Positions 5,109 through 61,376 of a DNA stretch of 64,000 nucleotides are shown piece after piece. The DNA comes from Caulobacter soli. GTDB lineage: Bacteria > Pseudomonadota > Alphaproteobacteria > Caulobacterales > Caulobacteraceae. Under the pieces are notes generated by a model that did no database searches, was not told where the DNA came from, and saw nothing but the letters and a program-made list of their open reading frames with translations. The position numbers and the translations under genes were made by a program. The stretch's first letter is position 1, and each line of letters starts with the position of its first letter. Location of the stretch: the NCBI RefSeq assembly GCF_011045195.1, contig NZ_CP049199.1, positions 2,046,001 through 2,110,000 on the forward strand, written 5' to 3'.

Positions 5109-5311
5109 CGTCCCGGCGATGCTCCGCGCCTCGAAAATCGCACCTGAGCCAAACTATCGCCGCTGCGCCATGCCGTGTCGGCCGCCAGTAGCCTGGACAA
5201 AACCGGCGTGCTCTTCGTCGTTCACGCGACAAACGGAGCACGCGACGCGCGCGACGCGATGGACCTGGGCGATCAAGCCTGGCCGGGCGTGCGGTTAGGG
5301 TAGGAGTGAAA

Positions 5312-6115: not shown

Positions 6116-6138
6116 AGCCAACCGCGGGCGGGGCGGCC

Positions 6139-6744: not shown

Positions 6745-6801
6745 GCTGGCGACGCCAGTTCCCATCAACGACCAAGGCCGCTGGGCGGCAAGGGGACGAC
6801 C

Positions 6802-39938: not shown

Positions 39939-39995
39939 TAACGTCAATATTCCTGTATTTTCCGAGTGTCGCGCCGTCGGGCGACGAGGCCGCGC

Positions 39996-46020: not shown

Positions 46021-47013
46021 TCAGGGTCGGGTCGCTTTGGCCTTGAGAACGATCTCCCCGCCACTCTGCTGGCTGATGATCGGTGCGAACAGTTCCAGAC
46101 GCCGGATCATCGCCGCTTCCTTGTCGACCAACAGCACGCCGGACACCTTGACCGAGGCGGCGCTGGGATCAACCCGTATTGGCGTGGCGACATAGCGGTT
46201 CAGGTCGGCCACGACCTCGGTCAGGGGCGTCTCGCGATAGACCAGCTTCCCGGATTTCCAGGCGAAGGCCGCGTCGGGATCGGTCGTGCGCACCAGCGAT
46301 GTCGTCGCGTTCCCGACGTGGATCAACTGCTGACCCTTGGCCAGGCGCACCGCGCCGTCCGACCCGCCGGATACCGAAACCAGACCTCGACGCACGGTGA
46401 CGGCCAGGCGGTCGTCATGGCTCAGGATATTGAACTCGGTGCCCAGCACGCGGACCTCTCGATCGGCCACGGCGACCACGAAGGGACGGTTTTCCAGGTG
46501 GGCGACATCGAAGCTGGCCTCGCCGTCTACGAGGGTGACATCGCGCTGGGCGCGGGACAGGCGTACGCGCAGGGTCGTGGCCCCGCCCAAGGTCAGGCGC
46601 GAGCCGTCGGCCAGGGCCACCTCGCGGGTCTCGCCGCGCTGGGTCGCGTAGTCGGTGAAGGTCGGGCGAGTCAGTTGCGGCAGAACGGCGACGACAACGG
46701 CGGCCGCGGCGGCGGCTGTCGCGAGGCCGGTCCAGACCCAGCGCCTCGCGGGCGGCTTGGAGCGCCGGGCGAACGGCACGACGGTGTCGGCCGTGACAGC
46801 GCTCACGGCGGGGGCGGGAAGCTCGCTGGCCGGCAGGTCTTCCAACTCGATCCACAGCGCCTCGACCTCGTCATAGGCGGCCGCGTGCGCGGGGTCGGCT
46901 TCCAGCCAAGCCTGGAACGCGGTCCAGTCCTCCAGACCGGCGTCACCCTGCAGGCGCGCGAACCAATCGCTCGCCGCTTGCTGGATGGGATCGGTGGTGA
47001 CGGACTGTGTCAT
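46021..47013 (-). CDS. FecR family anti-sigma regulator
   Basis: A 330-residue inner-membrane protein. The cytoplasmic N-terminal DUF4880 region (AASDWFARLQGD...WTAFQAWLEADPAHAAAYDEVEALW) is followed by one transmembrane helix near residues 90-112, and a periplasmic FecR domain (TQRGETREVALADGSRLTLGGATTLRV...VLGTEFNIL) with a C-terminal STN-like segment. It transmits the receptor signal to the sigma factor. The ATG at 47013 follows GGAAG. A candidate ECF promoter lies about 50 bases upstream. Confidence 0.9.
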   Translation of the reverse strand: MTQSVTTDPIQQAASDWFARLQGDAGLEDWTAFQAWLEADPAHAAAYDEVEALWIELEDLPASELPAPAVSAVTADTVVPFARRSKPPARRWVWTGLATAAAAAAVVVAVLPQLTRPTFTDYATQRGETREVALADGSRLTLGGATTLRVRLSRAQRDVTLVDGEASFDVAHLENRPFVVAVADREVRVLGTEFNILSHDDRLAVTVRRGLVSVSGGSDGAVRLAKGQQLIHVGNATTSLVRTTDPDAAFAWKSGKLVYRETPLTEVVADLNRYVATPIRVDPSAASVKVSGVLLVDKEAAMIRRLELFAPIISQQSGGEIVLKAKATRP

Positions 47014-47060: not shown

Positions 47061-47095
47061 CAATGACGCCATGACCGAGAAAGTCCCTCCTCGGT
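47061..47095 (-). promoter_or_regulatory. ECF-type promoter copy 4, before fecR
   Basis: On the minus strand, ACCGAGGAGGGA-N13-GGCGTCATTG matches the three cluster promoters with the same spacing: GAGGG-N16-CGTC is intact, with 8 of 12 and 10 of 10 block positions conserved. It would drive fecR, the receptor and the EamA gene. Confidence 0.65.
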
Positions 47096-47125
47096 TCTTC
47101 ATGGGGTGTTGCGGAAAGGACACAG

Positions 47126-47650
47126 TCATCGCCCGACCCTTTTGACCAGATGGCCTAGCGCCAGGCTGACATGCTTCTCGACCGAACTTCGAGATATGCC
47201 CAGGCGGGCGGCGGTCTCGACGTGGGTCAGGCCTTCGAACTTGTGCAACCGGAACACCTGTTGGGTGACGGGCGACAGGGTTTTCAGCGCCTCGGTGATC
47301 TTTTCAAGCCGCTGGCGGGCGATGACCGCGCTCTCGGCGTCGGGTTCCTCGGCCACGTCGAGCGCGCCGATCGTGGTGTGGTTGGTTCGTCGCCATTCGG
47401 TTTCGCGTGCGCCGGCCCGCTTGGCGCGGCGTAGGCGGTCGAGCATCAGGTTCGAGGCCAGGCGGTAGAGATAGGCGGGCGGATTGTCGATCGCCTCGTC
47501 CGTCACCGCCTGGACCTTCAGATACAGCTCCTGGACCAGATCCTCGACATCTCCCCGGCCGCCCAGGCGCGCCAGGAAGAACCGGCGCATGTCCTCGCGC
47601 CGCTCCAGATAGGCGGCCGCCAGCGGGGAGAGGTCCTGCAGGTCTTCCAT
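47126..47650 (-). CDS. FecI-like ECF sigma factor
   Basis: A 174-residue sigma factor: region 2 is AAYLERREDMRRFFLARLGGRGDVEDLVQELYLKVQ...PPAYLYRLASNLMLDRLRRAKRA and region 4 is LKTLSPVTQQVFRLHKFEGLTHVETAARLGISRSSVEKHVSLALGHL, both typical of iron/cell-surface-signalling FecI types. I start at the ATG at 47650; residues before it do not fit the family. The anti-sigma gene follows after 112 bases. It is divergent from the 16-gene cluster it may control. Confidence 0.88.
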   Translation of the reverse strand: MEDLQDLSPLAAAYLERREDMRRFFLARLGGRGDVEDLVQELYLKVQAVTDEAIDNPPAYLYRLASNLMLDRLRRAKRAGARETEWRRTNHTTIGALDVAEEPDAESAVIARQRLEKITEALKTLSPVTQQVFRLHKFEGLTHVETAARLGISRSSVEKHVSLALGHLVKRVGR

Positions 47651-47833
47651 GGTCAGCCGCGCGTCCGCGCCGATCGTCGAACAGACGGGACGCGGGAAGA
47701 CGGACTGGACGCTTCGGTGGTCATCACAAGGACGATCGGCCCGGGTTTGAGAGACTCGACGGAGGCAGGAAGACATCGCGCGACGGCGCCTTGAAGGCAA
47801 GGCTCGCCGACGCTGGCCGACGACCTCGGAAAA

Positions 47834-47869
47834 ATCGGTGAGGGGGCGAAACACACACGGCGTCATTGG
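47834..47869 (+). promoter_or_regulatory. ECF-type promoter copy 1, before the biosynthetic cluster
   Basis: ATCGGTGAGGGG-N13-GGCGTCATTGG. The TGAGGG-N16-CGTC layout has the spacing of ECF sigma promoters. The predicted transcript start is about 40 bases before the HAD phosphatase ATG. Confidence 0.75.
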
Positions 47870-47909
47870 CTCGAACGGCGCGGGGGCGTCTGGAGCCAAG
47901 TCGGGTACG

Positions 47910-48599
47910 ATGCGGATATTTTGCGATTTCGACGGGACGATAGCCAAGGTCGACACCACCGACCTGGTCCTGACCCGTCTGGCCGACCCGGCTTGGGAAG
48001 ACCTGGAGGAGCGCTGGACCCGGGGCGAGATCACCGCCGCCGAGTGCATGCGAGGCCAGGTCGCCTTGATCGGCGGCGACGACGCGGCGCTGGACGCGGT
48101 GCTGGACAGCGTCGAGCTGGCCGACGGCTTTTCCGAGTTCGTCGCCTGGTGTCGCGCCAACGCGGTGCCCTTGACGGTCGTCAGCGACGGGGTCGACCAC
48201 TTCATCGCCCGCATCCTGGATCGGCACGGGCTGGGTCACCTGCCGGTGATCGCCAACCACCTGGTCGGCAACGCCGAACTGGGGCGCCGGCTGGAGCAAC
48301 CCTGGTCGCGCGCCGGCTGCGCGGCGGGCTCCGGCGTGTGCAAATGCCAGGTGGCCACCAAGTCCGCGGAAGCCTCCCAAGGGCGCGTCAACGACCCTGG
48401 CGACCTGATGGTCTTCATCGGTGACGGCCGCTCGGACTTCTGCGTCTCCAACCGCGCCGACCTGCTGTTCGCTCGCGACAAGCTGGCGGCCTACGCCCGC
48501 TCGCGGGCCGTGCCGCACCACGCGTTTTCCGACTTTCACACCATCACGACGACGCTCGCGGCCGCCCACGGCCGCCTGGCGCGTCGCGCCGCCATCTGA
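47910..48599 (+). CDS. HAD-IB / MtnX-like phosphatase
   Basis: A 229-residue HAD phosphatase. Motif I is FCDFDGTIAKVDTTD with the nucleophile Asp6, motif II is VVSDGVDHFI, and motif IV is FIGDGRSDFCVS near residue 171. The cap insert resembles MtnX/SerB-type enzymes that act on small phosphorylated metabolites. Three or four Cys residues (CAAGSGVCKCQ) sit in the middle. It is the first gene of the cluster, 40 bases after ECF-type promoter copy 1. Confidence 0.85.
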   Translation: MRIFCDFDGTIAKVDTTDLVLTRLADPAWEDLEERWTRGEITAAECMRGQVALIGGDDAALDAVLDSVELADGFSEFVAWCRANAVPLTVVSDGVDHFIARILDRHGLGHLPVIANHLVGNAELGRRLEQPWSRAGCAAGSGVCKCQVATKSAEASQGRVNDPGDLMVFIGDGRSDFCVSNRADLLFARDKLAAYARSRAVPHHAFSDFHTITTTLAAAHGRLARRAAI

Positions 48600-48616
48600 C
48601 TGGAGTTCCCCCTCAA

Positions 48617-50008
48617 ATGTACGACGCTGAACATCCCGTCCTCGACGAAGCGACCCTGCGCGCGCTCGAGGCCCAGTATTGCTCCTACGGCGACACCGTC
48701 CACTATCTGCCCGAACCGAAGTTCTTCGACGGCTGCGAAGGCTCGTTCATGTACGACGCCCAGGGACGCCAGTTCCTGGATCTGCAGATGTGGTACTCGG
48801 CCGTCAATTTCGGCTATCGCAACCCTCGCCTGAACGCCGTCGCCCACCGCCAGCTCGATACCCTGCCGCAGGTGGCCAGCCAGTACCTGCACCGCGAGAA
48901 GGTCGAGCTGGCGGCGATGATCGCCCAGGACGCCGAGAAGAAGTGGGGCCGCAAGGGTCGCGTCCACTTCAACGTCGGCGGCGCCCAGGCAGTCGAGGAC
49001 TCGCTGAAGCTGGTCCGTAACGCCTCGGGCGGCAAGCAACTGATGTTCGCCTTCGAGGGCGGCTATCACGGTCGCACCCTGGGCGCTTCGGCGATCACCT
49101 CGTCCTATCGCTATCGCCGCCGCTTTGGTCACTTCAGCGACCGGGCGCAGTTCATTGAATTCCCGTACCATTTCCGTGGCCCCAAGGGCATGAGCAAGGA
49201 AGAGTACGGCCACTACTGCGTGCAGAAGTTCGCGCGCCTGTTCGAGACCGAATACAACGGCGTGCTCGACACCAAGACCGGCCAGGCCGAATACGCCGCC
49301 TTCTATATCGAGCCCATCCAGGGCACCGGCGGTTACGTGATCCCGCCGCCCAACTTCTTCATCGAGCTGAAGAAGATCCTCGACCAGCACGGCATTCTGC
49401 TGGTGGTCGACGAGATCCAGATGGGCATGTGGCGGACTGGAAAGCTGTGGTCGATCGAGCACTTCGGCGTGCAACCTGATGTTCTGGTGTTCGGCAAGGC
49501 CCTGACCAACGGCCTCAACCCGCTGTCGGGCGTGTGGGCGCGCGAGGAACTGATCAACCCGGAAGTCTTCCCGCCCGGCTCGACCCATTCGACCTTCAAC
49601 TCCAACCCGATGGGCACGGCCGTGGCGCTGGAGACCCTGCGCATGACGCACGAGGTCGACTACGGCGCCCAGGTGCTGGAGAAGGGCGCCTATTTCCTGG
49701 AGGGCCTGAAGGCGCTCCAGAAGCGCTGGCCGCAGATCGGCGATGTCGATGGCCTGGGTCTGGCCCTGCGCGCCGAGATCTGCGAGGCCGACGGCTTCAC
49801 TCCCAACAAGGCCCTGCTGAACCGCATGGAAGCCGAGGGAATGAAGGGCGACATCGAGATCGACGGCAAGCGCTACGGCCTGATCCTCGACGTGGGCGGC
49901 TACTACAAGAACGTCATCACGCTGGCCCCCTCGCTGGAGATCAGCAAGGACGAGATCGACCTGGCGCTGAAGCTGCTCGACGCCGTGCTGCGTCGCTGCG
50001 TCGACTGA
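48617..50008 (+). CDS. Class III (PLP-dependent) aminotransferase
   Basis: A 463-residue aminotransferase of the ornithine/GABA/diaminobutyrate group. It shows FEGGYHGRTLGASAIT near residue 147, LLVVDEIQMGMWRTGK with Asp265 binding PLP, and the Schiff-base Lys294 in VFGKALTNG. Pairing with a phosphatase and an arginase-like gene suggests formation of an amino-bearing building block. The gap to the HAD gene is 17 bases. The amino donor and acceptor are not predictable. Confidence 0.9.
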   Translation: MYDAEHPVLDEATLRALEAQYCSYGDTVHYLPEPKFFDGCEGSFMYDAQGRQFLDLQMWYSAVNFGYRNPRLNAVAHRQLDTLPQVASQYLHREKVELAAMIAQDAEKKWGRKGRVHFNVGGAQAVEDSLKLVRNASGGKQLMFAFEGGYHGRTLGASAITSSYRYRRRFGHFSDRAQFIEFPYHFRGPKGMSKEEYGHYCVQKFARLFETEYNGVLDTKTGQAEYAAFYIEPIQGTGGYVIPPPNFFIELKKILDQHGILLVVDEIQMGMWRTGKLWSIEHFGVQPDVLVFGKALTNGLNPLSGVWAREELINPEVFPPGSTHSTFNSNPMGTAVALETLRMTHEVDYGAQVLEKGAYFLEGLKALQKRWPQIGDVDGLGLALRAEICEADGFTPNKALLNRMEAEGMKGDIEIDGKRYGLILDVGGYYKNVITLAPSLEISKDEIDLALKLLDAVLRRCVD

Positions 50009-50016
50009 TACGTTCG

Positions 50017-50925
50017 ATGCGACCGGTTTTCCTCAGTCTGGACAACGCATTGGACGCGCAACCTGTGTTGCGCGACCGGGACGCCCTGACGATCGAAGCC
50101 CGGGACCTGGGACCGGCGCTGCGGCTGTGGAGCCGGCCGCCGGCCCTGGCCGCGCTGACCGCCCGCCTGCGCGACCGCGCGCCGGCGGGCGCGGCCCCCG
50201 ACCTGGTGTTCGCCGGCTCCGGCGACTTCCACCATGTCACCCCCTTGCTCATCGAGCGGGCCATCGCAGCGTCCGACGCCGGACCGGTGACGGTCGTCCA
50301 TTTCGACAATCACCCCGACTGGGTGCGGTTCGAGAACGGCATGCACTGCGGCTCTTGGGTCGGGCGCGCTGCCCGATTGCCAGGCGTGGCCAAGGTGATC
50401 ACGGTCGGCGTCTGCAGCGGCGACATCGATCGTCCGGAAGCCAAGCGGGCGGACCTAGACCTCGTCGCCGAGGGACGGGTCGAGCTCTATCCCTGGCGGG
50501 CGCCGGACGGTGGTCCAGTGCTGCGCGTCGGCGAGCAGGGTTGGCCGTCGATGCAGGCGATGGGCGAGGGCGGTTTCGCCGACCTGCTGGCGTCGCGGAT
50601 CGTCACCCCGACGGTCTATGTCACCATCGACAAGGACGTTCTCCATGTCGATGACGCGGTCACCAACTGGGACCAGGGCCAGCTCAGCCTGGACGGGCTG
50701 GAACGCTTGATCCGGACCGTGGCCGGCAGGGCGCGGCTGATCGGCGCCGACGTGGTCGGCGACTGGTCGCCGCCGCGCTATGGACCGGATCTGCTCTCGA
50801 AGCTGCTCAAGCGCGGCGAGGCCTTCCTGGATCAGCCTCGTGGCGGCGTGCCGGGCGACCTTGCGCGCACCAACGAGGCGACCAACCTGCGCCTGCTGTC
50901 GCTGTTCGCGGAGGTGGCGTCGTGA
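50017..50925 (+). CDS. Arginase/agmatinase superfamily (ureohydrolase-like) protein
   Basis: A 302-residue protein with manganese-type ligands: GSGDFHHV near residue 69, HFDNHPDW (equivalent to DxHxD) near residue 93 and TIDKDVLHVD near residue 207. These replace the usual SFDVDALDP, so the dinuclear metal site may be kept but the substrate pocket changed. Family members cleave guanidino C-N bonds, releasing urea. It starts eight bases after the aminotransferase and overlaps the next start (GTGA). Confidence 0.8.
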   Translation: MRPVFLSLDNALDAQPVLRDRDALTIEARDLGPALRLWSRPPALAALTARLRDRAPAGAAPDLVFAGSGDFHHVTPLLIERAIAASDAGPVTVVHFDNHPDWVRFENGMHCGSWVGRAARLPGVAKVITVGVCSGDIDRPEAKRADLDLVAEGRVELYPWRAPDGGPVLRVGEQGWPSMQAMGEGGFADLLASRIVTPTVYVTIDKDVLHVDDAVTNWDQGQLSLDGLERLIRTVAGRARLIGADVVGDWSPPRYGPDLLSKLLKRGEAFLDQPRGGVPGDLARTNEATNLRLLSLFAEVAS

Positions 50926-51290
50926 GCGCGACCCTGACCGCCACCAGCGGAGGTCTGCTGGCCTTTTGCATCGCCACCGAAATCGGCCGCGAGCTGAGCT
51001 TCAAGGCCGCCTCCGACGGGGCCGACGGCAAGCCGGTCTATCTGGCGGCGCTGGCCGGCCAGCCCGTGCTGTGGGCCGGGATCGCCTTCTGGTTCGTCGA
51101 GATGGTGGCCTGGGTGCTGGTGCTGGAGACCACGCCGCTCAGCCTGGCCTTTCCGATCATGACCCTGACCTACGCCGGCGTGCCCCTGGCCGGGACCCTG
51201 ATCCTCAAGGAGCGCCTAACCCCCATCCAGATCGCGGGCGCGGCCCTGGTCGCCGCCGGCGTCACCTGCGTGGGGCTGTCGGGCCTGTGA
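50922..51290 (+). CDS. Small DMT/EmrE-like membrane protein (ArnE/ArnF-like)
   Basis: A 122-residue protein with four predicted helices, ending FPIMTLTYAGVPLAGTLILKERLTPIQIAGAALVAAGVTCVGL. The helix 3-4 region matches the EamA/SMR superfamily, including subunits that flip lipid-linked sugars. It starts with GTG inside the arginase-like stop. A second member lies at 54160, so the two could form a heterodimeric flippase. Confidence 0.8.
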   Translation: MSATLTATSGGLLAFCIATEIGRELSFKAASDGADGKPVYLAALAGQPVLWAGIAFWFVEMVAWVLVLETTPLSLAFPIMTLTYAGVPLAGTLILKERLTPIQIAGAALVAAGVTCVGLSGL

Positions 51291-51316
51291 TCTCTTCGAA
51301 CCGTGGAGCGAGCGTC

Positions 51317-52225
51317 ATGACGCCGCGAGATTTCCGTCTTCCAAAGCGCGCCAAGGGCTTGATGGCCTGGACCTGGTGGGACCTGATCCCGGTCGCCGCC
51401 GCCGTGGCGCACCTGGCCTTCGTGGTCTGGATCGTGGTCGGCTCGGCCAACCGGCCCTGGTGGGGACAGCTGTTGTGCGGCTTCGGCTACGCCCTGGCGA
51501 TCAGCTGGAACGTCAACGGCGTCTCGCACAACTTCCTGCACACCCCGTACTTCCGGTCCAAGGCCCTGAACCGCGCCTTCTCGCTGCTGGAGTCGGTGGC
51601 CATCGGCTTTTCCCAGACCTTCTACACCTGGGTTCACCTGCGCCATCACGAGGGCAACAGCGACCGGCCGGGGCCGGACGGCGAGACCCGCGACTGGCTG
51701 TCGATCTATCGTCACGGCAAGGACGGGCAGCCCGAGAATGTGTGGTCCTACGTGTTCCTGGGCTTCTTCCGCGACAGCGGCGGCTCGGTCTACCAGGCGC
51801 TGAAGGCACGGGGCCGGGACGCCGACGCCCGCTGGGGTCGCATCGAGCTGAGCGCGGTGGCGGCCTTCGCGATCGGCATGGCCGTGATCGACTGGCGCGC
51901 GGTGCTGTTCCTGCTGCCGTTCTACTATCTGGGCGAATGCCTGTCGCAGCTGAACGGCTACTATGAGCACTTCAACGGTGACCCCGAAACTCCCATCGCC
52001 TGGGGCGTTTCCAGCTACGATCCGATCTACAACGTCACCTGGTTCAACAACGGCCACCACGCCGAGCATCACTACCGCCCGGCGGTGCATTGGACCCGGC
52101 TGCCGGCCCTGCGCAGGGCGCTGGTCGAGCAGCAGCAGGCCCACGGCGTCCACGTCATTGGCCCCGCGCACGCCCTCGGCTTTCTGGCCCGCGCCAATCG
52201 TCGGGAACGGGCGGTGCGCCCATGA
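51317..52225 (+). CDS. Fatty acid desaturase family membrane protein
   Basis: A 302-residue di-iron enzyme with His clusters HNFLH near residue 74, HLRHHEGN near residue 110 and GHHAEHH near residue 252. Four helices flank them. It introduces a double bond or hydroxyl group into a lipid chain. It lies 26 bases after the DMT gene, with GGAGCG upstream, and overlaps the alpha/beta hydrolase gene. It suggests that the cluster makes a lipid with a modified acyl chain. Confidence 0.9.
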   Translation: MTPRDFRLPKRAKGLMAWTWWDLIPVAAAVAHLAFVVWIVVGSANRPWWGQLLCGFGYALAISWNVNGVSHNFLHTPYFRSKALNRAFSLLESVAIGFSQTFYTWVHLRHHEGNSDRPGPDGETRDWLSIYRHGKDGQPENVWSYVFLGFFRDSGGSVYQALKARGRDADARWGRIELSAVAAFAIGMAVIDWRAVLFLLPFYYLGECLSQLNGYYEHFNGDPETPIAWGVSSYDPIYNVTWFNNGHHAEHHYRPAVHWTRLPALRRALVEQQQAHGVHVIGPAHALGFLARANRRERAVRP

Positions 52226-53058
52226 GCGCTCGGCCCCTGCGACTGGCGGGCCGTTCGGGTCACGGCGTCATGTTGATCCACGGCCTGACGGGCGCGCCGG
52301 CCGAGATGAAGCCCCTGGCCAAGCGCCTGGCGCGTCGTGGCTTCGAAGTCCACGCGCCGCTGTTGCCCGGCCACGGCGCCGACGAGGCGACTCTGTTGCG
52401 GACCACCTGGCGCGACTGGCTGGACGGCCTGATCGAAACCTACGACCGGTTCGCGGCGGAGGTCGACACCGTGTCGGTGGCCGGGATCTGCGTGGGCGGG
52501 GCGCTGGGCCTGATGCTGGCCGCCGAGCGGCCCGACATCCACTCGGCCGCGGTCTATTCGATGACTTTCGAATACGACGGCTGGAACATGCCGCGTTTCG
52601 CGGTCGCCGCGCCGGTGATCCAGCTGTTCGCCAATTTGCCGGGCGTGCGCCGACTGGCCTGGGCCGAGACCCATCCGTTCGGCCTGAAGGATGCGAGGCT
52701 GCGCGGCCTGGCCGAGCGCGCGCCGGGCGGACTGATCGAGGGAGCCATCGACCGCCTGCCGCTGGGGGCGCTGTACCAGATGTACCGGATGGGGCGTCGA
52801 CTTGAGCGGATCGGCAGGGCGATCGAGACGCCGACCCTGATCCTTCACGCTCGCGACGACGACATGAGCCATCCGCGCAACGCCTATCGCCTGGAGAAGG
52901 CGCTGGGCGGACCCACGCGCCTGCATCTGCTCGACGACAGCTATCACATGATCCACGTCGATCAGGAGCGCGACCGGGTCGCGGCCATGACCGCGGCCTT
53001 CTTCGGAGCGGAGACGCCATACGCGGTCGAGAGCCGGGAACTGAGGTCCCATGTTTGA
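52222..53058 (+). CDS. Alpha/beta hydrolase (esterase/lipase-like) with Cys nucleophile
   Basis: A 278-residue hydrolase fold protein: HGLTGAPAEMKPLA oxyanion region, GLPGHG-like PLLPGHGAD, and nucleophile elbow GICVG with Cys90 where esterases have Ser. Acid (ARDDD, near 213) and base (YHMIHVD, near 242-245) are present, so a Cys-Asp-His triad is expected. Cys triads occur in dienelactone hydrolases and some acyl-transferring enzymes. The start overlaps the desaturase stop. Confidence 0.85.
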   Translation: MSARPLRLAGRSGHGVMLIHGLTGAPAEMKPLAKRLARRGFEVHAPLLPGHGADEATLLRTTWRDWLDGLIETYDRFAAEVDTVSVAGICVGGALGLMLAAERPDIHSAAVYSMTFEYDGWNMPRFAVAAPVIQLFANLPGVRRLAWAETHPFGLKDARLRGLAERAPGGLIEGAIDRLPLGALYQMYRMGRRLERIGRAIETPTLILHARDDDMSHPRNAYRLEKALGGPTRLHLLDDSYHMIHVDQERDRVAAMTAAFFGAETPYAVESRELRSHV

Positions 53059-54163
53059 GACCCGGGTCCTGACCACGCTCGATGACCTGCCGCGCGGCCA
53101 GTGGGACGCCTTGTTCGGCGACGCCTTGGAAGGGTTCGACTATCTGCGCGCCATCGAGAGCGCTGGGCTGGCCGGCTTCGCCTGGCGCTATGTGCTGGCG
53201 CATCGCGACGGCCGCCTGGTCGGCGCGGCGCCGGCCTTCATCACCGACTATCGCCTTGAGACCACGTTCGAAGGCCCCGGCCGCCGGATCGCCGAGCAGG
53301 TTCGCCGCCTGGCGCCGGGCGTGATGACGCCCAAGCTGGCCTGTCTGGGCTCGCCCTGCGCCGAGACCGCCACGGTCGGCTTCGCGCCCGAGCTGCCGGA
53401 GGCGGAGCGTCCTGCCGTCCTGGCCGCTCTGATGCGGGCCTTCGAAGGCGAGGCGGCGCGGTCAGGCTGCGTCCTGACCGGGGTGAAAGACGCCGACCAC
53501 GACCAAGGCGACCTGTGGTCGCGAGCGGCGGCCGCCGCCGGCTACAGCCCCGTGCCAGGCCAGGCGATCGCCGACCTGCCCGTCGATTTCTCGAGCATCG
53601 AAACCTACCTCGCGGGCCTTTCGAGCGGCGTGCGGCGCGACATGCGACGCAAGCTGCGCGCGCGGTCGGCCGTGCGCGTGGAACTGCGGTCCGAACTCGG
53701 CGCCGATTTGCCCAGAGCCATGGCGCTTTACCACCAGACCCTGGCGCGGGCGTCGGCTCAACTGGAAACCCTGACCCCCGCCTTCTTCACCGAGGTGGCC
53801 GCGCGCCTGTCTGGCCGGGCGGTCTTCGCCTTGTATTACGTCGGTGATGACTTGCTAGCCTTCAACCTGCTGCTGGAAGACGGCGAGGTCCTGCTCGACA
53901 AGTTCTTCTGCATGGAGGCCGAGCGCGGCCGGGCCCATAATCTCTATTTCCTCAGCTGGTTCTACAATCTCGAACGCTGTTTGGAGCGTGGCCTGAAGCG
54001 TTATCGCAGCGGCCAGGCCAATCTCGGCGACAAGGTGCGGCTGGGCAGCCGGCTGACCCCGTCGACGATGTATTTCCGCCATCGCAACGGCCTGCTGAAC
54101 GGCGCCCTGCGGGCCTTGGCGCCGATGGTGATGGGCGATCCGACCGAGGGGCTGGCCGCATGA
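53051..54163 (+). CDS. GNAT-like / BioF2-type acyltransferase domain protein
   Basis: A 370-residue protein with a two-lobed GNAT arrangement. An N-terminal lobe (FETRVLTTLDDLPRGQWDALFG...GFDYLRAIE) precedes a C-terminal lobe with the LSSGVRRDMRRKLR segment, FALYYVGDDLLAFNLLL and DKFFCMEAERGRAHNLYFLSWFYNLE. This resembles FemAB/BioF2 peptidoglycan-type acyltransferases. It may add an amino acid or acyl group to the cluster product. It overlaps the hydrolase by eight bases. Confidence 0.75.
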   Translation: MFETRVLTTLDDLPRGQWDALFGDALEGFDYLRAIESAGLAGFAWRYVLAHRDGRLVGAAPAFITDYRLETTFEGPGRRIAEQVRRLAPGVMTPKLACLGSPCAETATVGFAPELPEAERPAVLAALMRAFEGEAARSGCVLTGVKDADHDQGDLWSRAAAAAGYSPVPGQAIADLPVDFSSIETYLAGLSSGVRRDMRRKLRARSAVRVELRSELGADLPRAMALYHQTLARASAQLETLTPAFFTEVAARLSGRAVFALYYVGDDLLAFNLLLEDGEVLLDKFFCMEAERGRAHNLYFLSWFYNLERCLERGLKRYRSGQANLGDKVRLGSRLTPSTMYFRHRNGLLNGALRALAPMVMGDPTEGLAA

Positions 54164-54576
54164 CCGCCGTCATCCCCAAGCCTCGTCGTCGCCTGGCGCC
54201 CATGGTGCTGTTCGCCATCCTGCCGCTGCTGACCCTGGGTTACCAGATCGCGGCCAAGGCCTCGGCCGCCCATCTGGCCGAGATGCATTTCGACGCCGCC
54301 TGGCTGGTGGCGGCCGCTCGCCTGCCCAGCGTGCAGATCCTGCTGGTCTGCGAAGTCGCCAGCTTCGTGGCCTGGATGACGGTTCTGTCAGAGATGCCCC
54401 TGAGCGCGGCCTTCCCGTTGTCGGCGGTCAGCTATGTGCTGATCATCGCCGCCAGCGCCCTGGTCTTCCACGAGCCCGTGGGCCTGCTGCAGGTCGTCGG
54501 CAGCCTGGCCATCCTGGCCGGCGTCTGGCTGATCGGGCGGGGCGGACGCGAGACGCCTCCGGGACCTGTCGCATGA
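54160..54576 (+). CDS. Small DMT/EamA-like membrane protein
   Basis: A 138-residue protein with four helices: MVLFAILPLLTLGYQIAAKASA, PSVQILLVCEVASFVAWMTVLSEMPLSAAFPLSAVSYVLIIAASALVF and VVGSLAILAGVWLIG. It resembles the gene at 50922 in the position of helices 2-4. The start and stop overlap both neighbours by four bases. A likely subunit of a lipid or sugar-lipid flippase. Confidence 0.78.
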   Translation: MTAVIPKPRRRLAPMVLFAILPLLTLGYQIAAKASAAHLAEMHFDAAWLVAAARLPSVQILLVCEVASFVAWMTVLSEMPLSAAFPLSAVSYVLIIAASALVFHEPVGLLQVVGSLAILAGVWLIGRGGRETPPGPVA

Positions 54577-55703
54577 CCGGCGTCGCGCTCAAGACCCTGC
54601 TGTTCGACTGGCGCCGGTTCGCGCCGGCCGCCGTGGCCGTCGGCTTTTCGGGCCTGCTGGTCCTGCTGCAGGCCGGCCTGATCCTCGGCGTGTTCTCGCT
54701 GGCCAGCGTCTATGTGACCAAGTCCTCGGCCGATCTCTGGGTCGGGTTTCCGGGCGTGCAGAGCATCGATCTGGGCCGGCCGATCGGTGGGGCCACCGAG
54801 TTGTTCCTGCGCGCCGACCCGCGCATCGCCCAGGTCGAACCCTTCTACTGGGGCTCGGGTGAATGGCGCACCAGCCGGCACGGCATGGTCAATGTCTACA
54901 TCGTCGGCCTGGATCCGACGCCCGGCGCCATGGTGCTGTCCGACGTCCTGCCGACCGACCTGCGCGTCGCCCTGGCCGAACCGGATGCGGTGCTGGTCGA
55001 TCGGGCGGATCTGGGCAAGCTGGAAACAAACGTCGGCGGCCTGGCCGAGATCAACAGCCGGCGAGTGCGGATCGTCGGCGTGACCGAGGGCCTGCGCGCC
55101 CTGGGCGGGGTCAATGTGATCGCTTCGGCCGCCACGGCCCGGCGGCTGGATCCGACGATCGGCAGCGCGGAGGGAGCGGCCTATTTCACCGCCCGGCTCA
55201 ACGACCCGGCTCAAGCTCGCGCCGCCGTCGCCGACCTGCGCGAGGTCGGCCGCCAGCGCGGCTTCGAGCCGATGACCAGCAAGACCTTCGCCGACCGCAG
55301 TGTCCGCTATTGGCTGGCCGAGTCCGGCGCGGGCGTGGCCTTCGTGTTCGGCAGCGCCGTGGCGATCCTGGTGGCGGTGATCGTCACCAGCCAGACCCTG
55401 GCGGCCGCCGTCGCCGCCTCGCTCAAGGACTACGCGGCCTTGCGGGCCTTGGGCTTCACCATCGGGGCCCTGCGCGCCATCGTTTTGGCCCAGACCGCCT
55501 GGATCGCGGCGGCGGGCGTGCTTCTGGCCGGCGTGCTGGCGGCGATCCTGGCGGTGGTGGCGCGGCTGGGGGCCACGCCGCTGATCATGACCGCGCCGAT
55601 GGTCGTCGGCGCCATCGGCCTGGTGGCGCTGGTCGCCTTCGGCTCGGGCCTGTGGGCGCTGCGCCGTGTCGCGCGGGCCGATCCGGCCGCGCTGCTTTTG
55701 TGA
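54573..55703 (+). CDS. ABC transporter permease, DevC/MacB-FtsX type
   Basis: A 376-residue permease with one N-terminal helix near residues 20-45, a ~220-residue periplasmic domain and three C-terminal helices near 258-285, 300-330 and 342-365, which is the FtsX/MacB fold. It is encoded apart from its ATPase. DevC in heterocyst glycolipid export has the same arrangement. It is flanked by the adaptor, outer-membrane and ATPase genes, all needed for a tripartite exporter. Confidence 0.88.
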   Translation: MTGVALKTLLFDWRRFAPAAVAVGFSGLLVLLQAGLILGVFSLASVYVTKSSADLWVGFPGVQSIDLGRPIGGATELFLRADPRIAQVEPFYWGSGEWRTSRHGMVNVYIVGLDPTPGAMVLSDVLPTDLRVALAEPDAVLVDRADLGKLETNVGGLAEINSRRVRIVGVTEGLRALGGVNVIASAATARRLDPTIGSAEGAAYFTARLNDPAQARAAVADLREVGRQRGFEPMTSKTFADRSVRYWLAESGAGVAFVFGSAVAILVAVIVTSQTLAAAVAASLKDYAALRALGFTIGALRAIVLAQTAWIAAAGVLLAGVLAAILAVVARLGATPLIMTAPMVVGAIGLVALVAFGSGLWALRRVARADPAALLL

Positions 55704-55711
55704 GGTTCTCG

Positions 55712-56617
55712 ATGATGCCCCGCCACGCGCCGAACGGCCGCGTCCTGATCTCCGTCCTGCTGGCGACTAGCGCGATGCTGGCCGCCTGCCAGAAGGGATC
55801 CGGCGCCGCCGACGCCCAGAACCGTCCCCCGCCGGCCGCCGTCGCCCGGGGCGTGGTCGCCGCCGACGGGGGGCTGATCCCGGTCGCCGCGCCGCGCGAT
55901 GGCCTGATCGCTCAGGTCAGCGTGGAGGAGGGCGCGCACGTCGATCGCGGCGCCGTCCTGGCCCAACTCGACGCCGATCGCAGCGCCTTGCTGACGGTTC
56001 AGGCCGCGGCCGAGACGGCTCAGCAGGAGGCCGCCTGGCGCGGCGCCCAGGCGCGGTCGTCGGCCGCTCAGGCCGAAGCCTCGCGCCTGGGCCGTCTGGC
56101 CTCGGCCGACGCCGCCACCCGGCGCGAAGCCGAGCAGGCCCGGCAAGCGGTGACTTTGGCGGCGGCCCAGAGCGACGAGGCGGCGCGCGCCGTCGACGTG
56201 GCGCGAGCCCGCCAGCGCCTGGCCGAACTGGAACAGACCGCTCGCACGGTCCGCGCGCCGGTGTCGGGGCTGGTCCTGCGCCGTACTGCGGCCGTGGGCG
56301 CGGCGGCGGTGTCCGCTTCGGGCACGCCGCTGTTCATTCTCGCGCCGGACGGTCCCCGGATCATCCGCGCGGAACTGGACGAGGCCTTCGTCGGTCGGGT
56401 CATGCCCGGCGCCGTCGCCTGGGTCACCGACGCCAGCGGAGGCGGGCGCGTGATGAAGGCGCGAGTGCTGCGGATTTCGCCGTCCTTCGAGGCGGCGGCT
56501 CTGGATGACCAGCCGGGCGGCCGCGCCGACGGTCGGGTCCTGCGTCTGGTGCTGGCCTTCGAGGAGCCCAACAATCTACGTCTTGGCCAGCGCGTGCTGG
56601 CGAGGATCGGCGGATGA
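55712..56617 (+). CDS. HlyD/DevB-type periplasmic adaptor, lipoprotein
   Basis: A 301-residue adaptor. Signal peptide with lipobox MLAAC near residues 22-26, then a lipoyl half (VAAPRDGLIAQVSVEEGAHVDRGAVLAQLD), a short coiled hairpin (AQQEAAWRGAQARSSAAQAE...REAEQARQAV), the second lipoyl half RAPVSGLVLRRTAAVGAA and a beta-barrel domain. Such adaptors bridge the ABC permease and TolC. It is eight bases after the permease. Confidence 0.88.
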   Translation: MMPRHAPNGRVLISVLLATSAMLAACQKGSGAADAQNRPPPAAVARGVVAADGGLIPVAAPRDGLIAQVSVEEGAHVDRGAVLAQLDADRSALLTVQAAAETAQQEAAWRGAQARSSAAQAEASRLGRLASADAATRREAEQARQAVTLAAAQSDEAARAVDVARARQRLAELEQTARTVRAPVSGLVLRRTAAVGAAAVSASGTPLFILAPDGPRIIRAELDEAFVGRVMPGAVAWVTDASGGGRVMKARVLRISPSFEAAALDDQPGGRADGRVLRLVLAFEEPNNLRLGQRVLARIGG

Positions 56618-57921
56618 TCGCGCGTGTTCTGGCCGCCGTCCTGGCGATGAGTCCGACGATCACGGGCGCGATGGCGGCGCCGATCACCCCCCCGCAAACC
56701 ACTGACGCCTGGTCGCCGACCCTGGACGATCCAGTCCTGGCGGATCTGCTGAGCCGAGCGGAAACGGGTTCGCTGGACATCCGGAGCGCCCTGGCTCGGC
56801 TGGAAAAGGCGCGGGCGGACGTCGACCTGGCCCGCGCCGGCCGTCGGCCGCACCTGAGCGTTGGGGCCGAGGCCGCCGTCGGCGGCGCGGACTTCTCGTC
56901 GACTGCGTCCGGCGCCGGCGCGCCGGTGCTGGGCAGTTACGAGGTGGATCTGTTTCATCGTCTCAAGCACGGTGTGGACGCGGCCAAGTCCGACGCAGCC
57001 GCCGCTTCGCAGGACGTCGTGGCCGCGCGCCAACTGGTGCTGGTCGAGGTCGCTCGCACCTATGTGACCTTGCGGGCCGACCAGGAGCATCGGGCGGCGG
57101 CGGAGGTCCGGGTCGGCTTGGCGCGGCAGGTGGAGGCGCTGATCCGCCGCCGCGCCCTGGAGGGTTCAGCGAGGGACGAGGACCTGGCGGCCGCGCGCTC
57201 CGCGGAAGCCCTGGCCAGCGCCGAGGTTCAGCGGACCGCGCACGCGGTGGAAGCCGACCGGATGCGGTTGGGCCTCCTGCTGGGACAGAATGAGCCGGTG
57301 GACGAGCCGGCCTATGCCGGCGACGAGATCCCGGTCACGCCATCGACGCTCACGGTTTCGTCCGAGGCGGTCCAGGGGCGCCCCGACATCCAGGCCGCGT
57401 TCGCCCGACTGCAAGCCGCCGACGCTCGCCGAGCGGAAGCCATGGCGGCGTCGCGACCTCGGTTCATGCTGACCGCCGGCATCGGGTCCGGCGAGACCGA
57501 TCTGCTCTATTTGCTGGATGTTCGGGCCTTGGCCTGGGCGATCGCCGGCGGCCTTACCCACGAACTGCTGGACGGCGGCGCGGCCAAGGCCCGCAAACGC
57601 GGTGCGGCGGCCGAGGCGGACCTGACCGAGTTGGCCTACCGCAAGGCGGTTGGCGAGGCCTGGGGGCAGGCGCGGTTGCAACTGGCGGCTCTGCAGGACG
57701 CTGGCGCGACCGAGAAGTTGGCGGGCAGGGCGTGGAACCAGGCCGTCGCGGCGTTTGGCGCGGGTCAGGCGCGGCATCAGGACGGCGACATCGACGGCGT
57801 CGCGTTGGCCGCCTTGGAGGCCAAGGCCGCCGACGCCGACGTGGCCCTGACCAACGCCCAGGCCGCCCGGGCCGAGGCCTATGTCGATCTGCTGCTGGCC
57901 CTGGGCGGGCGGGCCACGTGA
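56614..57921 (+). CDS. TolC-family outer membrane efflux protein
   Basis: A 435-residue protein with signal peptide MIARVLAAVLAMSPTITGAMA and two internally similar OEP halves. Each has long helices: SLDIRSALARLEKARADVDLARAGRRPHLS and, in the second half, GRPDIQAAFARLQAADARRAEAMAASRPRF. It forms the trimeric exit duct for the adjacent ABC exporter. Starts and stops overlap the neighbouring genes by four bases. Confidence 0.88.
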   Translation: MIARVLAAVLAMSPTITGAMAAPITPPQTTDAWSPTLDDPVLADLLSRAETGSLDIRSALARLEKARADVDLARAGRRPHLSVGAEAAVGGADFSSTASGAGAPVLGSYEVDLFHRLKHGVDAAKSDAAAASQDVVAARQLVLVEVARTYVTLRADQEHRAAAEVRVGLARQVEALIRRRALEGSARDEDLAAARSAEALASAEVQRTAHAVEADRMRLGLLLGQNEPVDEPAYAGDEIPVTPSTLTVSSEAVQGRPDIQAAFARLQAADARRAEAMAASRPRFMLTAGIGSGETDLLYLLDVRALAWAIAGGLTHELLDGGAAKARKRGAAAEADLTELAYRKAVGEAWGQARLQLAALQDAGATEKLAGRAWNQAVAAFGAGQARHQDGDIDGVALAALEAKAADADVALTNAQAARAEAYVDLLLALGGRAT

Positions 57922-58592
57922 CGGTGTCGTTGCGCGCCGAGGCGGTGCGAAAACACTACGGCGAAGGTGTCCAGAGGATCGAGGCCCTCCATCCGGTCAG
58001 CTTGAGCCTGCGGCCTGGCGAGCTGGTGATGATCACCGGCCCGTCGGGTTCGGGGAAATCGACCCTGCTGGCCATCCTGTCCGGCCTGTTGAGCCCGGAC
58101 GCGGGGTCGGTCGAGGCCCTGGGCAGCGCCTTGGCTCCAATGACCTCCGATCAGCGCGACCGCTTCCGGCTGGCCCATTCCGGCTTCATCTTTCAGGGCT
58201 TCCACCTGTTGCCGGCCCTGACCGCCAGCGAACAGGTCGAGATCGTGCTGCGGCGGCTGGGCGCTTCGGCGCGGGAGGCCAAGGCGCGCGCCGCCCAGGC
58301 CCTGGCGGCGGTTGGGCTGGAACGGCGGATGTCGAGCCGTCCCGGTGAGATGTCGGGTGGCGAGAAACAGCGGGTCGCCATCGCTCGCGCCCTGGCCAAG
58401 CGACCCGCCCTGATCTTCGCCGACGAGCCCACCTCGGCCCTGGATTCCGGGAACGGGCGGCAGATCGCGGCCCTGCTGCGCGCCGAAGCGCACGCCAGCG
58501 GCGCCACCGTCGTCTGCGTGACCCATGACGCCCGGCTGGCCGATCAGGCCGACCAGGTGCTGCGGATGGAAGACGGCCGAATGCTGGTCTGA
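57918..58592 (+). CDS. ABC transporter ATP-binding protein, DevA/LolD/MacB type
   Basis: A 224-residue ATPase with Walker A GPSGSGKST, Q-loop FIFQGFHLLPALTASEQVE, signature MSGGEKQRVAIARALA, Walker B ALIFADEPTSALD and the H-loop VTHDARLADQ. The spacing matches the subfamily that energises DevC/MacB permeases. GTG start inside the TolC stop. It completes a four-part exporter with the preceding three genes. Confidence 0.92.
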   Translation: MTVSLRAEAVRKHYGEGVQRIEALHPVSLSLRPGELVMITGPSGSGKSTLLAILSGLLSPDAGSVEALGSALAPMTSDQRDRFRLAHSGFIFQGFHLLPALTASEQVEIVLRRLGASAREAKARAAQALAAVGLERRMSSRPGEMSGGEKQRVAIARALAKRPALIFADEPTSALDSGNGRQIAALLRAEAHASGATVVCVTHDARLADQADQVLRMEDGRMLV

Positions 58593-58616
58593 CCCCAGAC
58601 GTCTGTTCGAGGGCAA

Positions 58617-58652
58617 ATCGGTGAGGGGATGGCGAGCACGCGGCGTCATTGG
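58617..58652 (+). promoter_or_regulatory. ECF-type promoter copy 2, before the acyl-carrier-like gene
   Basis: ATCGGTGAGGGG-N13-GGCGTCATTGG, identical in both blocks to copy 1 at 47834. It lies in the 87-base gap after the exporter ATPase and 27 bases before the next ATG. Confidence 0.75.
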
Positions 58653-58679
58653 ACCAGACCCCCACGGGAGCATCGCGCC

Positions 58680-58967
58680 ATGACCGACGCCCTTTTCGCC
58701 CACGCTTTTCTGACCGACGACGACGTCGCCAATCTAATCGCCAGCAAGGCGGGACTGGCCCGTTACATGTTGCAGCGCCCGGCTCGGCTCTGCGATCTGA
58801 ACTTGCGGCTGGACGCCTACATGGCGGTGTTGGTCGAGATCGAAGATCATTTTCACATCGAGATCGACGACCTGGTCGGGGCCGATTGCGCCACGCTGGG
58901 GGCGTTGATGGATCGCCTGAAGGCTCGTGTCGCCCATCCCGCCGTCTTGCCACGCCAGGCGGCCTGA
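58680..58967 (+). CDS. Acyl-carrier-protein-like, lacking the phosphopantetheine serine
   Basis: A 95-residue protein. Its last half aligns with ACP helices II-III (VEIEDHFHIEIDDLVGADCATLGALMDRL, compare the ACP pattern EExFxxEIxxxxxxxxxTxxxAxxxL). Where ACPs have the D-S-L attachment site, this protein has R-L-D, so it cannot be modified in the usual way unless I have misaligned it. It may be a structural or regulatory relic, or a carrier-like partner. It has its own ECF-type promoter. Confidence 0.55.
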   Translation: MTDALFAHAFLTDDDVANLIASKAGLARYMLQRPARLCDLNLRLDAYMAVLVEIEDHFHIEIDDLVGADCATLGALMDRLKARVAHPAVLPRQAA

Positions 58968-58992
58968 ACGCTTTCCGCCCTCCGGTTGAGAA

Positions 58993-59028
58993 ATCGATGA
59001 GGGGCCTTGCCGGGCTTGGCGTCGTTGG
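58993..59028 (+). promoter_or_regulatory. ECF-type promoter copy 3, before the CDP-glycerol transferase-like gene
   Basis: ATCGATGAGGGG-N13-GGCGTCGTTGG differs from copies 1 and 2 by one base in each block, with the same spacing. It ends only three bases before the ATG at 59032, so the transcript is predicted to be leaderless or nearly so. Confidence 0.7.
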
Positions 59029-59031
59029 GCC

Positions 59032-60255
59032 ATGCGCATCGGATTTCTCTTCAATCACGACCAGGTCCATCAGGTGGCGCACAGCCTGCCGATCGCCCTG
59101 GCCCTGGCCCGCGGCGGCCGCGATCTCGAGATCGTGGTCGCCACCACCAATCGACGCTTGACCGCCGAGGTGATCCGGCTGGGCGGCGGCCTGATCGGCC
59201 ACGGCGTCAGCCTGATCGAACTGGGTCTGACCAAGCGCTCGTCCAAGCTTCTCGCCGCCACCGCCGAAGCCGTGCTGCCGGCCACCAAGCTGCTGGTCTA
59301 CAGCGATAACCTCGACTTCTTTCGGTCGCTGGACATCCTGGTGGTCGCCGAGAAGACCTCGCTGATCCTCAAGACCCGCTACGGGCTGAAGGATCTGAAG
59401 ATCGTCCACACCCGCCACGGCGCCGGCGATCGTGCGATCGGCTTCGACAAGGCCAGCGCCGGCTTCGACCATGTGCTGGTCTCCGGCCGCAAGATCCGCG
59501 ACCGTCTGGTCCACGAGACCGGCGTCGCCCCGGAAAAGATCTCGATCGTCGGCTATCCCAAGTTCGACCTGCTGCCGGGGAAGGCGACGACCCATCCGCT
59601 GCTCGACGACGGCCGGCCGGTGGTGTTGTACAACCCGCACGTCTCGCCGCACTTATCGTCGTGGTACGAGGCGGGGCGTCAGGTGCTGGACTGGTTCGTC
59701 GAGCATGACGACCACAACCTGATCTTCGCGCCCCACGTCATGCTGTTCGAGCGACCGTTCGTGGCGACGATCGACAAGCTGCGGCTGGATCGCGCCGGGC
59801 GGATCGAGGAGCGCTATCTGCGCGCCCCCAACATCCACATCGACCTGGGCAGTCGGGCCTCGACGACCATGGCCTACACCCAGCGCGCCGATCTCTATCT
59901 CGGCGACGTCAGCAGCCAGGTCTACGAGTTCCTGCTCAAGCCACGGCCATGCGTGTTCCTCAACAGTCATCGCTTCGCCTGGACCGGCGATCCCAATTTC
60001 GGTCACTGGCGTACGGGTCCGGTGATCGAGGACGTCGCCGACCTGGGCGCGGCTATGTCGCGTTCGCGTCAGGAGCATGAGGCCGTCTGGCGGCCGGTGC
60101 AGGAGGCTCTGTTCGACGAGAGCTTCGACCTGACGGACGAGCCTTCGGCCGAACGCGCGGCTCGGGCCGTGGCCAAGTTCGCGGGCCAGGCTTGGCCCGA
60201 TCCGCCAGCCGCCGTTGTCCGCGACGCGGCGCGGACCGGAACGGGGGCGTTCTGA
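59032..60255 (+). CDS. CDP-glycerol glycerophosphotransferase-like (TagF-related) protein
   Basis: A 407-residue GT-B-fold protein. It opens IGFLFNHDQVHQVAHSLPIALALARGG; the second domain has VVLYNPHVSPHLSSW, NLIFAPHVMLFER and the family-type GDVSSQVYEFLLKPRPCVFLNSHRF (cf. DxSSxxxEFxxxxxPxxFxx). TagF-type enzymes transfer phosphoglycerol from CDP-glycerol to a lipid-linked acceptor. It overlaps the next gene by one base (TGATG). The donor is inferred. Confidence 0.8.
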   Translation: MRIGFLFNHDQVHQVAHSLPIALALARGGRDLEIVVATTNRRLTAEVIRLGGGLIGHGVSLIELGLTKRSSKLLAATAEAVLPATKLLVYSDNLDFFRSLDILVVAEKTSLILKTRYGLKDLKIVHTRHGAGDRAIGFDKASAGFDHVLVSGRKIRDRLVHETGVAPEKISIVGYPKFDLLPGKATTHPLLDDGRPVVLYNPHVSPHLSSWYEAGRQVLDWFVEHDDHNLIFAPHVMLFERPFVATIDKLRLDRAGRIEERYLRAPNIHIDLGSRASTTMAYTQRADLYLGDVSSQVYEFLLKPRPCVFLNSHRFAWTGDPNFGHWRTGPVIEDVADLGAAMSRSRQEHEAVWRPVQEALFDESFDLTDEPSAERAARAVAKFAGQAWPDPPAAVVRDAARTGTGAF

Positions 60256-61376
60256 TGCGCATCTTCTATGTGATCAATTCGGTCGAGGGCGGCGGGGCGG
60301 CCTTGCCGGTTCCCGCCGTGGCCAAGGTCCTGGCCGACCAGGGCGCGAAGGTCGAGATCCTGGCCCTGACCCGGCGCGACGGCCGGGCTTTGCCGCCGAT
60401 GACTCGCCAGGGGCTCAAGGTTCACGTCCGCGAGGGCGGCGAAAAGGACCATGCCGCCGCCCTGGCCTGGCTGGACAGGATGGTCGTCGAGCACCGGCCG
60501 GACCTGCTGTGGACATCCCTGACCCGCGCCACCCTGTTGGGTCAGATCGTCGGCCTGCGTCGCGGCGTACCGGTCGTCAGCTGGCAGCACAGCGCTTATC
60601 TGAAGACCGCCAATCGCCTGCTGCTACGCGCGACCCAGGGGCTGTCGGATTTGTGGATCGGCGACTCCCACAGCGTCACCGCCCTGACCGCTTCGCGCCT
60701 GAAGGTGAAGCCCGACCGCCTGACCACCTGGCCGTTGTTCGCCGCTGACGAGGTCGCGCCCCAGGCCACCCCTTGGCGACCGGGGCAGACCCTGCGATTG
60801 GGCGCTCTGGGGCGCCTGCATACCGCCAAGGGCTATGACGTTCTGATCAAGGCCCTGGCGCAACTACGCGCCGAAGGCTTCACCCCATCCACCCCATTCG
60901 AGGTCGAAATCGCCGGGGAAGGGGCTCAGCGCGAACACCTGCAGGCCATGATCCATCAGGCGGGCCTCGACAACGTCCTGCTCAGCGGGTTCTGCGATAC
61001 GCCACGCGAATTCCTGGCCGGGTTGCACCTCTATCTCCAACCGTCACGGCGCGAGGGCCTGTGCATCGCGGTGCACGAGGCCATGCAGGCGGGGCTTCCA
61101 GCCGTGGTCAGCGCGGTGGGCGAGATGCCCTACAGCGTGGTTGACGGCGTCACGGGACGGGTCGTTCCGCCGTGTGACGCCGAAGAACTGGCCAAGACCC
61201 TGAAGCGGTTGCTGCTGGCGCCCGACAAGCTGGAGAGAATGGGCGACGCCTCGCGGACGCGCGTTCTGGAGCGCTTTGGCCAGGCTCGCTTCGCCGCCAC
61301 GGGCGCGGAAATCTTCGCTCGTCTGCCGGTTGGTCGGCAGACACTGGAGCCGGCGATCGCGAGCCCGGCCTCGTGA
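60255..61376 (+). CDS. Glycosyltransferase, GT4/group 1 family
   Basis: A 373-residue GT-B transferase: N-terminal FYVINSVEGGGAALPV, C-terminal nucleotide-sugar domain with RLGALGRLHTAKGYDVLIKAL, VEIAGEGAQREHLQAM and the donor-binding SRREGLCIAVHEAMQAGLPAVVS containing the conserved E-x7-E. It probably adds a sugar to the cluster lipid at the membrane. The GTG of the next gene lies inside its stop codon. Confidence 0.9.
   Translation: MRIFYVINSVEGGGAALPVPAVAKVLADQGAKVEILALTRRDGRALPPMTRQGLKVHVREGGEKDHAAALAWLDRMVVEHRPDLLWTSLTRATLLGQIVGLRRGVPVVSWQHSAYLKTANRLLLRATQGLSDLWIGDSHSVTALTASRLKVKPDRLTTWPLFAADEVAPQATPWRPGQTLRLGALGRLHTAKGYDVLIKALAQLRAEGFTPSTPFEVEIAGEGAQREHLQAMIHQAGLDNVLLSGFCDTPREFLAGLHLYLQPSRREGLCIAVHEAMQAGLPAVVSAVGEMPYSVVDGVTGRVVPPCDAEELAKTLKRLLLAPDKLERMGDASRTRVLERFGQARFAATGAEIFARLPVGRQTLEPAIASPAS

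Follow-up and report, generated by a model that had tools for sequence, protein, structure and literature searches.

Conserved putative ECF-type promoter sites shared by a FecI/FecR/TonB receptor locus and a biosynthesis and export cluster in Caulobacter soli

The closest described systems to the locus analysed here are those governed by FecI-type sigma factors and their relatives. In Escherichia coli, FecI serves a single promoter, located 5' of fecA, according to the accessible text of PMC9249621. In the pyoverdine system, as far as the available portion of PMC4256889 describes it, the synthesis genes depend on PvdS under the control of FpvR, and FpvA-FpvR operates with both FpvI and PvdS. 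The part of a Sinorhizobium meliloti FecI study at hand reports that no promoter motif was found (PMC6180224), and typical promoters of extracytoplasmic function (ECF) sigma factors are described, in the available text of PMC8103513, as carrying AAC at -35 and CGT at -10. Here we analysed a 64,000-nt stretch of Caulobacter soli DNA (NZ_CP049199.1, positions 2,046,001-2,110,000; referred to as the window), where an original prediction made from the letters alone had placed four copies of a new ECF-type promoter, at a FecI/FecR/TonB-dependent receptor locus and at an adjoining biosynthetic cluster. Comparison with related genomes suggests that these sites very probably define a cell-surface-signalling regulon that extends to a biosynthesis and export cluster.

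Each site consists of two blocks separated by 13 nt:

47061..47095, minus strand: site 1, ACCGAGGAGGGA-N13-GGCGTCATTG, 5' of fecR (core pattern 47089-47061)
47834..47869, plus strand: site 2, ATCGGTGAGGGG-N13-GGCGTCATTGG, 5' of the HAD gene that opens the cluster (core pattern 47840-47868)
58617..58652, plus strand: site 3, ATCGGTGAGGGG-N13-GGCGTCATTGG, 5' of the gene for an acyl carrier protein (ACP)-like protein (core pattern 58623-58651)
58993..59028, plus strand: site 4, ATCGATGAGGGG-N13-GGCGTCGTTGG, 5' of the gene starting at 59032 (core pattern 58999-59027)

All four proved to lie exactly where they had been predicted, including the identical blocks of sites 2 and 3, and they are the only exact matches to GAGGG-N14-GGCGTCRTTG in the genome (5,676,814 bases searched), where 0.08 exact matches would be expected for independent bases with the base composition of the window. 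When up to two mismatches were allowed, 66 matches were obtained (4 exact, 1 with one mismatch and 61 with two) and the reversed pattern gave 11. The long form ATCGRTGAGGGG-N13-GGCGTCRTTGG, searched with up to three mismatches, returned three matches, all without mismatch and corresponding to the plus-strand sites. The shorter consensus originally proposed, GAGGG-N16-CGTC, is indeed present in all four sites but is weak on its own: it matches four times in the window, whereas shuffles of the window give 1.79 matches on average and four or more in 10 of 100 cases. A genome-wide search for TGAGGG-N16-CGTC, which had been suggested as a check, gave 17 matches versus 5 for the reversed pattern. 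The signal is therefore carried by the longer blocks, the short consensus alone not being clearly above chance in the window.

All the sites are located in intergenic gaps, and each heads a separate transcription unit: fecR and the receptor gene, an operon running from the HAD gene to the ABC transporter genes, the small ACP-like gene and an operon of glycosyltransferase-related genes. At site 4, CGTC ends 8 nt upstream of the start codon (ATG, 59032), so that a transcript from this site would be almost leaderless. A simple scan of both regions for sigma-70 promoters found no promoter-like site, in agreement with what the original prediction says of sigma-70. The assignment to the ECF type is partly borne out, since the CGTC present in every site matches the CGT typical of the -10 element, whereas the GAGGG at -35 differs from the typical element, a point taken up below. 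The spacing of the sites is the same as that of GAGG-N17-CGTC, the form in which the element recurs in other genomes.

Conservation of the motif in relatives carrying the cluster, another proposed check, was found within the genus. In 75 genus genomes, GAGGG-N14-GGCGTCRTTG had 25 exact matches, distributed over 14 genomes, and the reversed pattern had none. As many as 24 of the 25 stand 5' of fecR, the HAD gene, the ACP-like gene or the 59032 gene; the odd one (G202, L175) has no query genes nearby. Mean column identities of the -35 block, spacer and -10 block were 0.92, 0.66 and 0.99 for HAD (8 sites), 0.77, 0.73 and 0.99 for fecR (11 sites), 0.87, 0.69 and 1.00 for the ACP-like gene (5 sites) and 0.85, 0.62 and 0.97 for the 59032 gene (9 sites), values in which the identity of both blocks and their contrast with the spacer are inflated because sites were chosen by GAG[GA]-N17-CGTC, a pattern that predetermines about eight of the columns. 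For these values, the upstream block was taken as columns 0-4 and the -10 block as columns 31-40, and L135, L136 and L137 were left out of the fecR list and L142 and L146 out of the 59032 list. The blocks thus appear to be kept while the spacers drift, most clearly at the HAD, ACP-like and 59032 sites. Among 15 copies of the 59032 gene with at least 60% identity (duplicates counted once), G[AT]GG-N17-CGTC precedes 12, and GAGA-N17-CGTC is found in L135 and L137. The site also precedes the 59032 gene in L133, L135 and L137, although the stretches fetched for these loci lack the genes from HAD to ACP.

The element also recurs beyond this locus. A family search covered 390 genomes, 176 of them with a FecI match, and 40 further FecI homologues (46-57% identity) were hand-picked for variety before their downstream regions were viewed. 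Of these 40, 28 have GAGG-N17-CGTC between fecI and fecR, whereas dinucleotide shuffles averaged 0.32 and never exceeded 3, and each of the other spacings from 10 to 24 was found in at most 3 of them. A relaxed motif (G[AT]GG, spacing 15-17), defined post hoc after viewing the sequences, occurs in 31 of the 40, its reverse complement in none, and the consensus of 29 such fecI-fecR sites is TKGAGGMG-N11-GTGGCGTCWT. By comparison, 24 distant FecI homologues, which share 31-39% identity and are closely followed by FecR, yielded one relaxed match, positioned far downstream; the fecR start lies within about 50 nt in 20 of these 24. Given this near-absence among distant homologues, the element appears to be a property of a FecI subfamily. 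The putative promoter class is wider than the present locus.

The signalling locus itself comprises three genes:

43592..46018, minus strand: TonB-dependent receptor with plug, barrel and N-terminal STN-type signalling domain (barrel and plug by Pfam, STN by profile)
46021..47013, minus strand: FecR-like sigma regulator (Pfam FecR, 69 bits against a cut-off of 24, and DUF4880)
47126..47650, minus strand: FecI-like ECF sigma factor (Pfam sigma-70 regions 2 and 4 and the NCBIfam sigma70-ECF superfamily, all above cut-off)

It therefore contains the parts of FecA/FecR/FecI-type surface signalling: an ECF sigma factor with regions 2 and 4, an adjoining FecR and a TonB receptor with a signalling domain. 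A profile of the receptor N-terminus built from ten relatives (the window copy and nine others) matched two known domains of this kind, the solved signalling domain of HasR (E 1.4e-6) and that of the ferric-pseudobactin 358 receptor (E 0.0066). STN was found in all ten profile members, at E values of up to 1, and the window copy by itself scored 18.5 bits, under the Pfam cut-off of 28.4. The domain thus seems to be of the FecA/HasR kind, which fits the earlier idea of a surface signal. On the fecI strand, between 47651 and 47837, a CTTGCCTT block lies upstream of fecI and is shared by the majority of the eleven relatives aligned; it is perhaps part of fecI's own promoter. No GAGG-N17-CGTC was seen on that strand in the upstream alignment, inspected by eye, and fecI therefore probably uses a different promoter. 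The locus is flanked on both sides by two-component genes, with a response regulator and kinase at 39966-42063 and another response regulator at 63049-63726.

Whether the motif accompanies FecI was compared across cluster copies. The copies counted, 31 in number (the window and fetched relatives), have both the HAD gene (at least 38% identity) and the aminotransferase gene; a FemAB relative is present in 46 of the 390 family genomes, a subset of which was fetched. The count omits L021-L027, L030 and L031, which duplicate genomes represented by another copy, as well as loci that do not contain the two genes together, such as L133, L135, L137, L158, L171-L177, L181 and L182. In all 15 copies that have FecI and FecR at a distance of up to 13 kb, the relaxed motif is found no more than 120 nt 5' of the HAD gene (14 times as GAGG-N17-CGTC), and a different element, the repeat TCAG-N6-8-TCAG, likewise defined post hoc after viewing the sequences, is found in none of them. 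Where a response regulator lies within 4 kb upstream, only 1 of 11 copies (L170) has the motif and 10 of 11, L170 included, have the TCAG repeat; L183 has neither. The association between the motif and FecI linkage in these copies is clean but does not reach significance in the tree-based contrast given below. In the response-regulator-linked copies, the TCAG repeats stand 5' of the HAD gene at 11-bp spacing. The regulator of L160, the only one examined, is of the OmpR type with an adjoining kinase (4574-6785), and a cyclopropane-synthase gene is located upstream of it. G211 and G239 carry a FecI orthologue together with, elsewhere in the genome, a repeat-type cluster copy. Because the cluster adjoins a two-component system in other genomes, it would be a facultative member of the regulon.

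From the sites, their conservation, the domains and the synteny, all read directly from the DNA, we infer that the sites act as promoters and that the following path operates. The TonB-dependent receptor, through its periplasmic signalling domain, would respond to the binding of an outside ligand, and FecR would relay the signal to the neighbouring FecI-like sigma factor. RNA polymerase with this sigma factor would then read four promoters that share the pattern TGAGGGG-N13-GGCGTCRTTGG (GAGG-N17-CGTC), driving fecR and the receptor gene as feedback, the HAD-to-ABC operon, the ACP-like gene and the glycosyltransferase/cyclopropane-synthase operon. We consider such a surface-signalling regulon, extended to biosynthesis and export, very probable. 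The claim that the adjacent sigma factor reads all four sites gains from site conservation, from the fecI-fecR element of the subfamily and from the distribution of the motif (15 of 15 FecI-linked against 1 of 11 response-regulator-linked copies). The proposal that receptor, anti-sigma factor and cluster form one regulon is likewise favoured, with the refinement that the cluster is facultative and that the four sites correspond to four units.

Several observations weigh against this regulon. All four sites have GAGGG at -35, without the AAC of typical ECF promoters. In the fecR sites of close relatives, the -35 block (0.77) is scarcely better kept than the spacer (0.73), one FecI-linked relative (L151) lacks the relaxed motif 5' of fecR, and the L142 copy of the 59032 gene has no motif. 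Among five cluster copies with neither system in the fetched stretch, four have the motif and L163 has the repeat; the motif-bearing ones may have FecI elsewhere in the genome. Trees of two cluster proteins require four or five changes when copies are labelled as FecI-linked or response-regulator-linked, and six when the three groups are all distinguished. The supported independent pairs number one (FemAB) and two (aminotransferase), which is too few for the linkage to be significant by this tree-based contrast. Finally, the genome encodes two further FecI-like paralogues.

The paralogues bear directly on the first alternative, in which the sites are ECF promoters read by a paralogous FecI-like sigma factor or by several sigma factors together. 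The genome contains three matches to the window sigma at E 1e-25 or better, and the paralogue at C1:557023 has GGGG-N17-CGTC and the same GGCGTCATTG block 5' of its own fecR. This site, however, deviates by one base in its -35 block, and the motif follows the adjacent sigma factor by synteny, so that we regard such a reading as unlikely. The two blocks might instead be the binding site of an unrelated DNA-binding regulator, with no promoter involved, and a fixed two-block spacing would suit a dimeric regulator equally well. Yet the blocks are not repeats of one another, their spacing and the CGTC suit ECF promoters, one site stands 8 nt upstream of an ATG, and members of the sigma subfamily also have the element between fecI and fecR, all of which makes this explanation very improbable. 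An origin of the sites by chance, or by recent duplication of a single stretch within the locus, which the commonness of the short consensus in the genome and in window shuffles might suggest, is rejected, as only the blocks are held in common while the spacers differ, four exact long matches stand against 0.08 expected, and the blocks are conserved across genomes.

The regulon thus favoured would include the following cluster genes, identified by family scan unless indicated otherwise:

47910..48599, plus strand: MtnX-like HAD-IB phosphatase, the first gene of the cluster
48617..50008, plus strand: class III aminotransferase
50017..50925, plus strand: arginase-family protein
50922..51290, plus strand: EamA/ArnE-like half transporter (under curated cut-offs)
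51317..52225, plus strand: fatty acid desaturase-like protein
52222..53058, plus strand: alpha/beta hydrolase
53051..54163, plus strand: FemAB-like acyltransferase
54160..54576, plus strand: EamA/ArnF-like half transporter (Pfam at cut-off, NCBIfam under it)
54573..55703, plus strand: FtsX/DevC-like ABC permease (Pfam FtsX; DevC model 83.6 bits against a cut-off of 290.35)
55712..56617, plus strand: probable HlyD-type adaptor (position and appearance of the translation only)
56614..57921, plus strand: TolC-like outer membrane efflux protein
57918..58592, plus strand: ABC transporter ATPase
58680..58967, plus strand: small ACP-like protein without the usual serine (PP-binding E 0.05, under cut-off; alignment with relatives)
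59032..60255, plus strand: protein weakly resembling glycosyltransferases and CDP-glycerol transferases (no family above cut-off)
60255..61376, plus strand: GT4-type glycosyltransferase
61373..62629, plus strand: cyclopropane fatty acid synthase-like methyltransferase

Such a gene set probably builds and exports a compound. No synthetase domain of nonribosomal peptide synthetases (NRPS) or NRPS-independent siderophore (NIS) synthesis was detected among the scanned cluster genes, the probable HlyD gene and the rest of the genome being outside the scan. The desaturase, cyclopropane-synthase, ACP-like and DevC-like genes lead us to guess at a lipid-like product. The names of FemAB relatives are all generic among the 120 of 394 listed. 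The cofactor-carrying serine is absent from the ACP-like protein in the window and in Caulobacter-clade relatives; L152, L155, L157, L158 and L168 read LGIASLDV there.

A more tentative idea is that one conserved cluster has been wired, according to lineage, either to a FecI-type sigma factor or to an OmpR-type two-component system through exchange of promoter elements. Where FecI is the partner, the circuit may be self-sensing, with the receptor detecting a non-siderophore product that the cluster itself makes and exports. We see this combined scheme as possible rather than likely. The existence of two regulatory versions of one cluster would make pathway rewiring directly testable. GAGG-N17-CGTC provides a testable promoter consensus for a FecI-type sigma subfamily in Caulobacteraceae, from which regulon members can be predicted, and surface signalling would here be tied to a biosynthesis cluster in which no siderophore synthetase was recognised among the scanned genes. 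No description of this promoter was found by title or abstract in the open-licence literature, a scope outside which most subscription papers fall, so that an earlier description is possible.

On the export side, the DevC-like permease, ATPase, probable adaptor and TolC-like channel resemble a DevBCA-TolC-type exporter, from which the cluster differs in that the permease remains under the DevC cut-off (83.6 versus 290). With the E. coli FecA-FecR-FecI system, the locus shares a receptor with a signalling domain, a FecR and an ECF sigma factor in one place. The window sigma, however, scores only 50.6 bits against the NCBI equivalog for ferric citrate FecI, far under its cut-off of 260, and the single promoter given for E. 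coli in the text cited above contrasts with four sites here, one 5' of fecR and three 5' of other units. Pyoverdine, as described in the source cited, offers a precedent, in that surface signalling through an anti-sigma factor governs both the receptor and the biosynthesis genes; it involves two sigma factors and a siderophore product, whereas here there is one linked sigma factor and no siderophore synthetase among the scanned genes, with a different promoter class and a separate site 5' of fecR. The S. meliloti locus is, like the present one, an alphaproteobacterial FecI-FecR-receptor locus; no motif is reported for it in the part of the study cited, whereas the motif described here is conserved across a FecI subfamily.

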